From an uncultured Clostridium sp. (lineage in GTDB: Bacteria; Bacillota; Clostridia; TANB77; CAG-508): 64,000 bases of DNA. The notes beneath the pieces were generated by a model, which saw only the letters and a program-made list of their open reading frames with translations, had not been told where the DNA came from and made no database searches. Positions 1,691 to 62,550 of this stretch are shown here, one piece after another. A program made the position numbers and the translations under genes. The stretch is from contig CAOKXF010000002.1 of NCBI GenBank assembly GCA_948473335.1, positions 1 through 64,000 of the forward strand, given 5' to 3'. How positions within the stretch are numbered: position 1 is the stretch's first letter; the number at the start of each line of letters is the position of its first letter.

Positions 1691-4315
1691 TCCTACTTCT
1701 AAGTTTTCTATTCCTGTATAATTTGTTCCTGCTGATATATCTACTTTTACTTTATATTCTCCTGCATTTATTGGTGCTGTTGTTGTTCCTTCTCCTTCAA
1801 CTCCATTTATTACTGGATAATATTTTATTGTTATATTTCCTAATCCTATTACATTTTCTGCTGCTTCTACTTCTGCTACTTTTTGTGTTCCATCATATAT
1901 TAATCCTTCTGCTGATGGCATTTTTATATCTAATTGATCTTTTGATACTTCTTTTGCTGTTATTTCTAATGTTGCATTCATTTTTGCTGGACTTACTTCT
2001 TTATAATTTACTTGTAAATCTTCACTTAATACAAATGTTGCTTCTGCATTGTATGTTCCTACATTTGTTCCTTTGTTATTTGTGTATGTTGCTGTTATTC
2101 CTGTTGGTAATCCTTCTACTGTTATTTCATGTTCTTGTGCATCATATTTTACTGTACTATTATTAAAGCTTACGTTTGATGGTAATACGTATGCTATTTT
2201 ATTGATTACTAAGTCTGCATTCATTTTTGCTGGACTTACTGTTTGATAATTTGCTTTTAATTCTTCGCTTAATACAAATGTTGCTTCTGCATGATATGTT
2301 CCTGCAATTGTTCCTTTATTATTTGTATATGTTGCTGTTATTCCTGTTGGTAATCCTTCTACTGTTATTTCATGTTCTTTTCCATCATAATCTATTGCAC
2401 TATTATTAAAGCTTACATTTTCTGGTAATATGTATGCTGCTTTTGATACTTCTATTGTTACTTCTATTCCTGTTATGATTTCATAATTTACTGTGTCCTC
2501 TGGTGTATATGTTACACTAAATTTGTTTGTTCCAGCATTTCCTACTGTTGTTTCTGCTGTTATTCCTTCAAATGTAAATCCTTTTGGTAATTTTACACTT
2601 GATAATTTATCACCATATGTTGCTTTTAATCCTGTTGGTACTGTATATGATGGTGTTGCTTTTGTTATTATATATTTTCCATTTATAAAAGTAATTTTAT
2701 AGTTTGTATTTGATGATGTTCCTGTTATTGCATATTCTCCTACTGATGTTGTTCCTTCTTTTGTTAATTTTATTCCTAGAACTTCTACTGTTTCTCCTGG
2801 TGCCATTGTTCCTTCTTTTATTTTGCTTGTTAAAGCTACAAGTGGTTCTCCATATACACTTGTTTTGTTCTCTATTTCTATTGTTATTTCTCTTTGTTTT
2901 ACTTCAACTTCAAAATATGTTTCTTTTCCTTCATATGTTACTATTATAAATTGACTTCCTATATATGTTTTGTCATATCCTCTAGTCATATTTGCTGTTA
3001 AGTCTTTCGTCTGTGTTGTTCCTGAAGCCATAGTTAATAAAACTTTTCCATTTGTTAAATTTAGTTCGTCTCCATATTGATATTCTGTCTTTATTTGTCC
3101 TGTTACAGATATACTAGCTAAAAAGTCATTTACAACATATCTGTAAACTTGCATTTTTCCATTATATTTGAATAATACTTGTTGACTTCCTAATTTATTT
3201 GTTGTTGAAAAGTTTTCAAACATTTCTTTTGTTGGTTCTACATAAGATACTTCTCCTCTTAATCCAGTAACCTTTATTTTGGCTCCTGTTAAATCTAATT
3301 GTTCTCCATATTTATAATCTACTTTTGATGGTGGTGTTAATTCATATATTGGTTCAGTTCCTACTACTGTTACTATTCTTGTTACTGTATTTGATTTGTT
3401 GTTCCCTGAATCTGTATATGTATATGTTAATGTTTGTGGTCCTCTTTTACTTGTATCTAATTTTTCATTAGCATATACTATTCCCTTTCCATCAACATTG
3501 TCTGTCCAACTTGCTCCTGGGTCTTTAAATGTGCTATTTTGTGCCACTTCCATTGTTGCAGCTCCATTTAATGTTAATACTGGCGCTTCTAAATCTGCTA
3601 CTATATATCTCGCCCAACGACCAACAGACACATTGTTTGCACCATCTTTTGTATAGTATTGTAGATACCATGTTCCTTTTTCTTGTGGTGCTTGAAATGT
3701 ATATTCTCTTCCTGGCTTATATATAAATGTAGATCCTGTTGCAAAATCATCAAGATTTAACTCTTTAACCCATTTATATCCTAACCAATATATATCATTT
3801 TCATCTATCATTTCTATTGTGAATGTTCTTCCTTGTGCTATTGTTGATCCTGAACTAGGATAATCTCCATTATGCTTGAATGTTGGCTTTACATTATCTA
3901 CATAATCTGATGGTACATCATTTGCTACCACATAATATGGGACATCAAACCAATATGTAAGGTTCTTTTGATGATCCTTTGCTGCAATACTAAATTCATG
4001 TAATCCTAATTCTGTTGGTGCTGTTGTTTTGAATACATAGTTTGTGTATTCTTCTGATAAGTATTGCTTTACTTTATTACTATTACTATCTATGTTTCTG
4101 TCCCATTGATAATATATAACATCCAATGGTGATTCATCTGTAATAGTAAAAGATATTTCTGATCCTGCCTTTATTCTTCCAGCTTTTGTATTAGCAGTTA
4201 TTTTGGGTGGTGTTGTATCTGTTACTGCTAATGAATATGTTTGAGCTCCTGTTATCATCATAACAACTGCTATTATCATAATAATAACTTTTTGTTTTTT
4301 AATAAACTTAAACAT
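1..4315 (-). CDS. Large secreted/surface protein with Ig-like, DUF5011/Big_3-like, YDG-like and MBG_2-like tandem repeats; 3' end truncated by window edge
   Basis: Open minus frame from ATG at 4315 (RBS AAAGGAGG upstream): MFKFIKKQKVIIMIIAVVMMITGAQTYSLAVTDTTPPKITANTKAGRIKAG..., then repeats such as RAITITANNAESVYGEQRAELGYTVSPENALVNNDEITNVQYTANVNETTGVGTYDITLTATISDNYEITFEKGTYTVKA. No stop before position 1, which explains its absence from the ORF track. Confidence 0.9.
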   Translation of the reverse strand, partial: MFKFIKKQKVIIMIIAVVMMITGAQTYSLAVTDTTPPKITANTKAGRIKAGSEISFTITDESPLDVIYYQWDRNIDSNSNKVKQYLSEEYTNYVFKTTAPTELGLHEFSIAAKDHQKNLTYWFDVPYYVVANDVPSDYVDNVKPTFKHNGDYPSSGSTIAQGRTFTIEMIDENDIYWLGYKWVKELNLDDFATGSTFIYKPGREYTFQAPQEKGTWYLQYYTKDGANNVSVGRWARYIVADLEAPVLTLNGAATMEVAQNSTFKDPGASWTDNVDGKGIVYANEKLDTSKRGPQTLTYTYTDSGNNKSNTVTRIVTVVGTEPIYELTPPSKVDYKYGEQLDLTGAKIKVTGLRGEVSYVEPTKEMFENFSTTNKLGSQQVLFKYNGKMQVYRYVVNDFLASISVTGQIKTEYQYGDELNLTNGKVLLTMASGTTQTKDLTANMTRGYDKTYIGSQFIIVTYEGKETYFEVEVKQREITIEIENKTSVYGEPLVALTSKIKEGTMAPGETVEVLGIKLTKEGTTSVGEYAITGTSSNTNYKITFINGKYIITKATPSYTVPTGLKATYGDKLSSVKLPKGFTFEGITAETTVGNAGTNKFSVTYTPEDTVNYEIITGIEVTIEVSKAAYILPENVSFNNSAIDYDGKEHEITVEGLPTGITATYTNNKGTIAGTYHAEATFVLSEELKANYQTVSPAKMNADLVINKIAYVLPSNVSFNNSTVKYDAQEHEITVEGLPTGITATYTNNKGTNVGTYNAEATFVLSEDLQVNYKEVSPAKMNATLEITAKEVSKDQLDIKMPSAEGLIYDGTQKVAEVEAAENVIGLGNITIKYYPVINGVEGEGTTTAPINAGEYKVKVDISAGTNYTGIENLEVGTFTIAKRAITIKADNKTSMYGEPKQELTYTIAPENALVNGDKETVVLTTEASETANVGTYDITGTATISDNYEITFEKGTYEITKRIITVTADNKTSIYGEPKQELTYQITEGNIVNNDMIFVSLDTQASETANVGTYDITGTATISDNYAITFIKGTYEITKRAITITANNAESVYGEQRAELGYTVSPENALVNNDEITNVQYTANVNETTGVGTYDITLTATISDNYEITFEKGTYTVKARKITIKADNKTSIYGDQRVELTYQVIEGNIVNNDKINITLNTEASSTTNVGTYDITGTATINDNYEITFEKGIYEITKRAITITANNAESVYGEPRAELGYTISPENALVNNDEIKNVQYTTEVTNTTGIGTYSIGITATISNNYAIDFVEGTYTVKARKITVKADDKTSVYGNQRVELTYQVTEGSIVNNDVITVALDTEASETSNVGTYDITGTATINNNYEITFEKGIYEITKRAITIKANDAESIYGEPRAELGYTVSPENALVNNDEITNVQYTANVNETTGVGTYDITLTATISDNYEITFEKGTYTVKARKIT

Positions 4316-21783: not shown

Positions 21784-21898
21784 AAAACAACTTATTTACT
21801 AATAGTCTTCAGATATACACTTATTAGTAAACAAGTTGTTTTTTATACTTTAGGAAAGTCATCATAGTATGATGGTTTTCTGTAGAGGATAATTATGG
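21784..21898. repeat. Family-2 hairpin plus conserved tail
   Basis: aaaaacaacttatttactaatagt ... acttattagtaaacaagttgttttt, then atactttaggaaagtcatcatagtatgatggttttctgtagaggataattatgg. Confidence 0.8.
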
Positions 21899-21903
21899 TC
21901 TTT

Positions 21904-22455
21904 CTAATCATTATTTTCTGTTTTTTCATTTTCCTCTTTTTCAGTATGTTCATCACTTTCAATATTATCGTCTGTTGAATCAGATGGTTTTTCTATTATT
22001 TCTACCTCTTTGGCTTCTTCAATGATTTGTTCTGCTCCACAATGAACGCAGAACTTTGCGTCTTTTTCAATTTCTGCAAAGCATTTTATACATTGTTTTT
22101 TGTCTTTTAATAATCTTATTTCATTTAAGCAATTTTCTATTTCTGCTGAAAGTACATCTATTCTTGTTATTTCTTCTTCTAAATCCTTTTGTATATTTAT
22201 CTCTTCCTTTAATGTGTGTTTTTCATATATTTTTTTTCCTATTTCTTGATATAAATCATTGATTTTTGATTTACTTTCATTCATTTTCATTTTTAATTTT
22301 GCTTCTTTTGTTAGTTTATTGGTTTTCTCACTTACCCCTTTATATGTTTCAGTTGCTTTTTTACTTAGTTTGTTAAAAAAATCCATTTCTCTTTTCATTC
22401 CTTTCTTTTTAGGCATATTTTTGAATAAATTATTTTTATGCTCTATGAAAATCAT
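21904..22455 (-). CDS. Zinc-ribbon protein with coiled-coil region
   Basis: CIKCFAEIEKDAKFCVHCGAEQI zinc ribbon; true start probably an internal Met (MKREMDFFNKLSKKATETYKG). Confidence 0.7.
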   Translation of the reverse strand: MIFIEHKNNLFKNMPKKKGMKREMDFFNKLSKKATETYKGVSEKTNKLTKEAKLKMKMNESKSKINDLYQEIGKKIYEKHTLKEEINIQKDLEEEITRIDVLSAEIENCLNEIRLLKDKKQCIKCFAEIEKDAKFCVHCGAEQIIEEAKEVEIIEKPSDSTDDNIESDEHTEKEENEKTENND

Positions 22456-22571
22456 CCTGGTATGATGTCTTTCTATTGCCTTCTCTAATACTATTATTAC
22501 TATTACATTATTATAATTAAAATATTAAAAATTATTCTAAATAACTATCATGAACTTTTATTATATTGATT

Positions 22572-23555: not shown

Positions 23556-23617
23556 TGCCTTTTTCCTTGTTATATATTTAGGTTTTTTTGAAGGTTATAC
23601 CTATAAACCCTTTTTTA

Positions 23618-23727
23618 ATTGTATAGGAAAAATCGAAGATTTTTACATATACAAAAAGGTTAAGTTTCCTTAGTTTGTGCATATTTGCGAAGCAAAATGC
23701 ATATGTGACGAAGTCACTTTTCTTATT
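23618..23727. repeat. Family-1 triple mini-hairpin element, copy A
   Basis: ATTGTATAGGAAAAATCGAAGATTTTTACATATAC...TTTGTGCATATTTGCGAAGCAAAATGCATATGTGACGAAGTCACTTTTCTTATT; near-identical reverse-complement copy at 61716-61824. Confidence 0.9.
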
Positions 23728-27436: not shown

Positions 27437-27585
27437 GTCATTCTCCCTTTCTCTTGTTCTACTTATCACAGTTTATGTTACATACTTTTATTATATCATA
27501 TTTTATGTAAATTCACAAATATCTTTCATTCTAACCTTTTTATTCTAACTTATGATAACTAGAATCTAAGACAGATTTAAGAGAA

Positions 27586-27626
27586 TTAACCTTTTGTATA
27601 TGTAAAATCTTCGAATTTTCCTATAC
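27586..27626. repeat. Family-1 element, partial copy C
   Basis: ttaaccttttgtatatgtaaaatcttcgaattttcctatac matches the reverse complement of the first ~45 bp of copy A. Confidence 0.75.
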
Positions 27627-27716
27627 TCTAAAAAATAAGAATAAAATTTTAAAAAAATGTTCCATTTTTAAGATTTATTTAATATAATAAAAATATCAAA
27701 AAGGAGATGTTGATTT

Positions 27717-29805: not shown

Positions 29806-29935
29806 TATAAAAAAACAGCTTGTTTGCTAATGGGCGCATATCTGCGCCCATTAGCAAACAAGCTGTTTTTTTATACTTTAGGAAAATCATCATAGTATGA
29901 CGGCTTTCTGTAGAGGATAATTATGACGAAATCTT
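29806..29935. repeat. Family-2 hairpin (33-bp perfect stem) plus conserved tail, between convergent genes
   Basis: Arms 29806-29838 and 29843-29875 are perfectly complementary (core AAAAACAGCTTGTTTGCTAATGGGCGCA); tail tactttaggaaaatcatcatagtatgacggctttctgtagaggataattatga. Confidence 0.9.
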
Positions 29936-61715: not shown

Positions 61716-61824
61716 AATAAGAAAAGTGACTTCGTCACATGTGCATTTTGTTTCGCAAATATGCACAAATTAAGGAAACTTAAACTTTTTTATACGTAAA
61801 AATCTTCGATTTTTCCTATACAAT
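61716..61824. repeat. Family-1 triple mini-hairpin element, copy B (inverted relative to copy A)
   Basis: Reverse complement aligns to 23618-23727 with about 5 substitutions and one 1-nt indel. Confidence 0.9.
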
Positions 61825-61826
61825 AG

Positions 61827-61877
61827 AAAAACTAATCAATTTTTCTCAATTTTACTTGAGTTTTTTGATTAGTTTTT
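61827..61877. terminator. Terminator downstream of greA
   Basis: aaaaactaatcaa ... ttgattagttttt. Confidence 0.75.
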
Positions 61878-62359: not shown

Positions 62360-62466
62360 TGTTTTTACCTCTTTCTCGTGAATTTATTGTATATATTAAT
62401 TGATTTATTCATTTTTGTCAAGTGTTTTTAAAGATAAATTTCCCACTCATTTTTCATAAAATGGGA

Positions 62467-62500
62467 TGTGCATCGAAATCTTCGATTTCGTAAATGCACA
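62467..62500. terminator. Nested hairpin downstream of groEL
   Basis: tgtgcat-cgaaatc-ttc-gatttcg-taa-atgcaca. Confidence 0.65.
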
Positions 62501-62550
62501 CCTTTCTTACTTATCTATACTTTTCATTTATTTTTCTTTATTGTTTTATT

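Follow-up and report, generated by a model that had tools for sequence, protein, structure and literature searches.

The window, by which we mean the whole 64,000-nucleotide stretch of DNA analysed, carries a short structured repeat, copy A, between gpsA and plsY; the Pfam assignments of the interval agree with the location given in the preliminary description. Three hairpins are found in copy A exactly where that description had placed them, at 23628-23644 (AAAAATC-GAA-GATTTTT), 23678-23701 (bearing GCGAAGC) and 23705-23717 (GTGAC-GAA-GTCAC). Its claim that C-GAA-G closes every stem holds for the short form of the element in this genome; family-wide, however, the short P1 and P3 mostly have C-GNA-G and the long P4 has C-TTT-G. 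Likewise, GCGAAGC is present in the middle loop of copy A, as had been claimed, but copy B (Table 1) reads GCGAAAC. The insertion point of copy A lies after position 23619, and the foot of P1 takes in the final target base. The internal guide pairs with the right end at two places (23657-23659 with 23722-23724, and 23662-23665 with 23716-23719), and in the short form the final two bases of P4 compete with this pairing. When folded as single-stranded DNA the copy A stretch gave z = -5.2, with 0 of 200 shuffles equally good, and with RNA parameters z = -3.6. The gpsA-plsY interval is uninterrupted and lacks the element in three other genomes (G224, G227 and G166), and in a fourth, G079, apparently the same interval holds an independent copy.

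Table 1. Copies of the element in the window and the parts of copy A
Feature	Position	Strand	Remarks
Copy A, short form, 107 nt	23620..23726	+	TGTATAGG...TTTTCTTAT; ends set by the empty-site boundary rule
Target side of copy A, T-run TTTTTTAAT	23611..23619	+	TAAT here, not the usual TTAT
P1 hairpin, left end	23619..23654	+	TTGTATA-GG-AAAAATC / GAA / GATTTTT-ACA-TATACAA
Internal guide AAGGTTAAGT	23656..23665	+	
P3 hairpin with GCGAAGC (C-GAA-G triloop)	23677..23703	+	
P4 hairpin, short form GTGAC-GAA-GTCAC	23705..23717	+	
Right end ACTTTTCTTAT, element-encoded, guide-paired	23716..23726	+	element ends after TTAT
Copy B, short form	61717..61822	-	downstream of greA and of the greA terminator hairpin; before a recN-like gene
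Degraded member, left-end hairpin and guide region	27565..27635	-	E=0.0016
Weak, degraded member	62405..62511	+	E=2.8e-5

It can be seen from Table 1 that the second, reverse-complement copy reported about 38 kb away is indeed present; the match to copy A spans 61716-61831 at ~93% identity. The preliminary description had allowed that the two loci might derive from one segmental duplication, or that they might be the only two copies. The flanks of copies A and B are unrelated, and so they did not arise by segmental duplication, and further copies are dispersed over the genome. The 1.7-Mb draft genome to which the window belongs has at least ten strong copies plus many degraded ones: BLAST returned 28 matches, eight near-full and about twenty partial, and a covariance model made from twelve copies returned 39 at E<=1. 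One head-to-tail tandem lies downstream of tRNA-Met and its terminator. Head-to-tail tandems were also seen at L288 (4845-5135), L300, G238:C96 and G172:C11, often at contig ends, from which it follows that copy numbers in draft genomes are underestimated.

Other repeats were encountered in the window. A second small family (TTTTTTAT-ACTTTAGGAAARTCATCATAGTATGAYGGYTTTCTGTAGAGGATAATTATG...ACGGTTTTTTAT) occurs at 21839-21897, 22432-22490 and 29867-29925, and again in the left flank of locus L068, where a copy of the main element has inserted at the right end of the second-family repeat. This second family likewise begins directly after a terminator T-run and was possibly moved by the same machinery as the main element. 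One of its members lies directly behind a perfect 33-bp inverted repeat with a 4-nt spacer (29806-29875, ends TTTTTTTAT), an unusually long terminator-like hairpin. At 1-2443 one or more genes contain a sequence of 234-240 bp, corresponding to some 79 aa, about seven times in tandem, and the product is probably a repetitive surface protein.

The covariance-model search of this genome and its relatives that had been proposed earlier returned tens of copies in many genomes. Of the 292 genomes searched in the order, 101 gave matches, and 97 of these belong to one family of uncultured Clostridia; 28 of 45 genera are represented. Among 388 genomes of the class, the element was found in none of those outside the order. 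In full scans of ten genomes at E<=0.01, the highest numbers were 41 (G172), 28 (G267) and 22 (G238), and the four control genomes gave zero matches. Public records containing the element are mostly from uncultured Clostridia, several being titled as animal gut. Searches of phages, plasmids and viral contigs gave no match, and no Rfam family scored above its gathering threshold. Ten of the copies in G267 are 95-100% identical and lie at unrelated sites, which is recent spread. At least five species have in common an orthologous copy next to ribosomal-protein genes (L033, L110, L117, L172, L181 and L183); its P1 has been remade through compensatory changes (TTTTATAGC/GCTATAAAA), and it is a candidate for domestication. 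A left hairpin TTGTATAGG...CCTATACAA with a different right part is shared by L053, L035, L230 (~1870-2030, minus strand) and G036; this last genome, from another family of the order, has 16 matches to the left hairpin alone, lying between a T-run and an A-run where read.

Flank searches identified many orthologous sites without the element, as well as G228, in which an internally deleted remnant keeps both ends (L204). In the cleanest empty and filled pairs, the insertion is exactly after TTAT within a pre-existing TTTTTTAT; two such pairs read CTGTTTTTTAT[element]CATAACATAC against CTGTTTTTTATCATAACATAC, and CCGTTTTTTAT[element]TATATATT against CCGTTTTTTATTATATATATT. From 129 non-redundant copies we derived the target consensus TTT(T/C)TTAT and the element terminus TTTTCTTAT. 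TTAT is present at both sides of 102 of the 129 copies, as would be expected if a DDE transposase moved a MITE into TTAT targets and duplicated these 4 bp. When the left flank departs from TTAT, however, the right side is never the same (0 of 16 copies), nor is the left side when the right departs (0 of 14), and because the deviations are never shared, TTAT is not a duplication: the left tetranucleotide is part of the target, and the element itself supplies the right one. In addition, the base at -5, outside the supposed duplication, is C at the right in 127 of 129 copies and T, C, G or A at the left, and there are no terminal inverted repeats. The DDE reading is thus largely refuted and we give it hardly any credence; the label MITE-like, used in the preliminary description, does not apply in its strict sense, as terminal inverted repeats and target duplication are both absent. 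We conclude that the element inserts 3' of TTAT in a T-run and brings its own right end, TTTTCTTAT, along.

Nearly all copies (125 of 129) are intergenic, and a terminator-like hairpin adjoins 54 of 129, as opposed to 35 of 220 comparable intergenic T-run sites (p = 1.3e-7). The T-runs of intrinsic terminators are therefore a favoured insertion target. The earlier statement that the structure is not a terminator stands for the element itself, but terminators are far from irrelevant to where it is found. A fixed host feature, such as a bidirectional terminator or attenuator recurring between genes, would be in keeping with the intergenic positions, with the terminator-like appearance of P4 plus TTTTCTTAT and with the orthologous ribosomal-protein-gene copy common to several species. 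Against this, orthologous sites are empty, insertions lie beside terminators that were already there, near-identical copies occupy unrelated sites, copies occur in tandem and some genomes have none. As the main account this reading is refuted, and we consider it most improbable, though single copies could be domesticated. The element is non-coding, dispersed, mobile and non-autonomous. Mobility, which had been suggested from repetition and structure, is borne out by the genome-wide copies, the near-identical copies at unrelated sites, the head-to-tail tandems and the many empty sites, and that we are dealing with a mobile non-coding family is practically certain.

The element is about 105 nt in its short form and 150-160 nt in its long form, and full-length copies fold into P1, P3, P4 and a long-range helix between the guide and the right end. 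Long copies have a conserved apical sequence in P1, TTTTATCTTGACC, which the short copies of this genome lack, leaving the C-GAA-G loop. RNAalifold, given 28 diverse copies, returned unprompted a helix in which AAGG-TT-AAGT, located behind P1, is paired with right-end ACTTTTCTT and which encloses P3 and P4. In this helix 98.5% of cells are paired, against at most 70% in slid controls, and there are 26 two-sided changes against 8.9 in shuffled data, a number that 0 of 500 shuffles reached; kinship among copies can inflate such shuffle tests. All four guide bases are paired in 109 of 127 copies, whereas the shuffled mean was 40 and the maximum 54 in 1000 shuffles. Among the 127 copies six guide words occur, each with a complementary right end: AATT with AATT, AGGC with GCCT, AAGT with ACTT, AAGC with GCTT, AGGT with ACCT and AAAC with GTTT. 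At L282, a change of GG to AA in the guide is accompanied by C to T at the right end. The slid controls and the six distinct word pairs make chance an unlikely explanation, and we are highly confident that the pairing is real. It would place both ends side by side, next to P1, P3 and P4.

Folding of single sequences favours a local P2 hairpin (AAGG/CCTT), but this lacks covariation and gives way to the guide helix. The left T-run can pair with guide AAGG in 90% of cells, again with no covariation. C-GNA-G triloops belong to a class of stable DNA mini-hairpins, and hairpins with such loops number 130 of 306 in the elements against 13 of 1708 in the flanks. The tips of P3 and P4 look exchangeable: at L266, L270, L284, L329 and others they are replaced by wholly different sequence (for example CCGAGCGAAGCGAG, or GTTTTGC...CAAAGACT...GCAAAAC) with guide and right end kept. 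Overall, the covariation supports the earlier suggestion of a folded single-stranded DNA or RNA substrate.

If the substrate were RNA, a folded transcript would be mobile or functional, either by retro-insertion after terminators in the manner of group IIC introns or as a regulatory RNA repeat. The strong covariation of several helices, the conserved P1 apical sequence of long copies, the G-U wobble retained in 27 of 28 copies in the guide helix and the preference for terminators would all suit an RNA. However, no reverse transcriptase was found in the element-bearing genomes G267, G172, G059, G079, G217 and G162, the copies are mainly antisense to genes, Rfam families gave no match, and the GNA triloops and the fold z-score suit DNA at least equally. 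An RNA-level element is, in our estimation, improbable. Group IIC introns insert 3' of T-run intrinsic terminators, and the element resembles them in this respect and in its RNA-like fold; it differs in being far shorter (107-160 nt), in having no intron domains and in that reverse transcriptase is absent from several copy-rich genomes.

The closest parallels are with the IS200/IS605 family, particularly IS608, and its non-autonomous, PATE-like derivatives. IS608 inserts precisely 3' of TTAC, which is retained in the left flank and with which its guide AAAG pairs; guides situated 5' of hairpins recognise the cleavage sites, as well as the target, by pairing (PMC5934647). The element likewise inserts 3' of a tetranucleotide that is kept at the left with no target duplication, and has hairpins near its ends and a guide 5' of hairpins that pairs with a cleavage site 3' of them; its guide is (A/C)AAGG and its target TTAT, as opposed to AAAG and TTAC. 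Unlike these insertion sequences, it has neither tnpA nor tnpB, a single guide and hairpin unit and not one per end, an additional left-boundary hairpin (P1), a guide helix of seven pairs and not four bases, a preference for terminator T-runs, and no correlation with Y1 genes.

The element has no protein-coding capacity, and no cognate Y1 transposase for it was found. Across the 292 genomes the presence of the element is independent of that of Pfam Y1_Tnp (73/28 vs 137/54, odds ratio 1.03, p=1), and Y1 was undetected in copy-rich G267, G238 and G162, these being draft assemblies in which absence is weak evidence. A search for an autonomous copy with an open reading frame between left and right ends gave chance pairs only. 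RAYT-like and IS200-like genes, which had been named as things to look for, are present. As drivers, the IS200-like genes L029, L210 and L211 were rejected as their ends differ from those of the element, and so was the RAYT L030, which is flanked by GGGACGTTCC palindromes with no element nearby. Also set aside was L230, a broken piece of a Y1 gene next to a related left end; the element neighbouring it is of another subtype. L030 (G000:C2:166266-166604) and its flanking palindromes, GTGTGTCAGAAGGAACGTCCC-ACTGACCCA, probably constitute a REP-type system of their own within this genome. REPs are palindromes of 20-40 bp with GTAG or CGTC tags. The element resembles REP/BIME sequences with RAYT (TnpA_REP) in being made of dispersed intergenic palindromes, which are thought to move as single-stranded DNA, but it comprises four helices, targets TTAT and is without a cognate RAYT; it is not a tagged palindrome of 20-40 bp, nor does it cluster round a RAYT gene. 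The REP-like character and RAYT link of the preliminary description were accordingly not upheld, since the RAYT-like gene is flanked by a different palindrome, the element lacks REP/RAYT features and Y1 genes do not track it.

The right-end half of the element, with its guide, branched hairpin and cleavage site in that order, is as in IS608, and for this reason we take single-strand cut-and-paste as the likeliest mechanism. The active form would be a folded single-stranded DNA, on which an enzyme acting in trans would cut 3' of the TTAT at each end, the cleavage site there being paired with the guide. The ends would be joined into a circle with the junction TTTTCTTAT/TGTATAGG, and the circle would be inserted 3' of another TTAT lying in an exposed T-run. 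In the left half, P1 would place the target side alongside that same guide. The tandem junctions, which also read TTTTCTTAT/TGTATAGG, are compatible with a circle. Copies antisense to the surrounding genes outnumber sense copies by 58 to 30 (p=0.004), which, taking gene strand as a proxy only, is the opposite of what a lagging-strand target on the coding strand predicts, unless there is selection against sense insertions. Draft assemblies lose multi-copy genes, and hence the negative results for Y1 and for an autonomous copy, with the antisense lean, lower the probability of single-strand transposition but do not remove it; by analogy with IS608, we put movement of the IS200/IS605 kind, in trans, at about an even chance. 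Since no enzyme of that family could be assigned to it, we do not file the element as an IS200/IS605 member despite its like workings. Tentatively, the element might instead be a minimal mobile element of a new kind, a protein-free folded strand that uses one guide for its own end and for the new target and is served by a non-Y1 enzyme, either of the host or an unrecognised nuclease-ligase.

The main rival to the single-strand model is a site-specific recombinase. On this view a recombinase of the tyrosine or serine type, perhaps one of the host's own that acts on the folded strand, would recombine the TTAT core of a circle with the TTAT of a T-run. The identical core on both sides with no duplication, the circle-type junctions in tandem copies and the absence of tracking by Y1 would be accounted for. 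Recombinases usually require protein-binding arms in the target, yet the target side here conserves only the T-run, and recombination leaves the guide-paired right end with its compensatory changes unexplained. We therefore consider it unlikely. Comparable recombination has been suggested for the Bacillus cereus bcr repeats with a TTTAT motif (PMC6542083, PMC3446304). These repeats, bcr1-bcr3, are non-coding, interspersed, mobile and partly transcribed repeats of 100-400 bp, with tens of copies per genome and TTTAT at the site; they are given as known only from the B. cereus group, and their mechanism is described only as possibly recombination-like (PMC6542083, PMC3446304). The element and bcr1 are alike in size, in copy number, in being non-coding and in TTTAT; the distribution of the element differs, being essentially one family of Clostridia.

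In our literature searches we met with no earlier account of a family of this kind from these gut Clostridia. The six guide words, each with its complementary right end, display directly in nature the co-evolution of guide and cleavage site, and the copies are a natural mutant set for testing how base-pairing-guided insertion is specified. The element also connects the unexplained TTTAT-associated repeats of Firmicutes, such as bcr1, with a mechanism open to experiment. Should Y1 enzymes play no part, some other kind of enzyme must mobilise it, and the non-Y1 reading, if true, would represent an independent invention of base-pairing-guided transposition.
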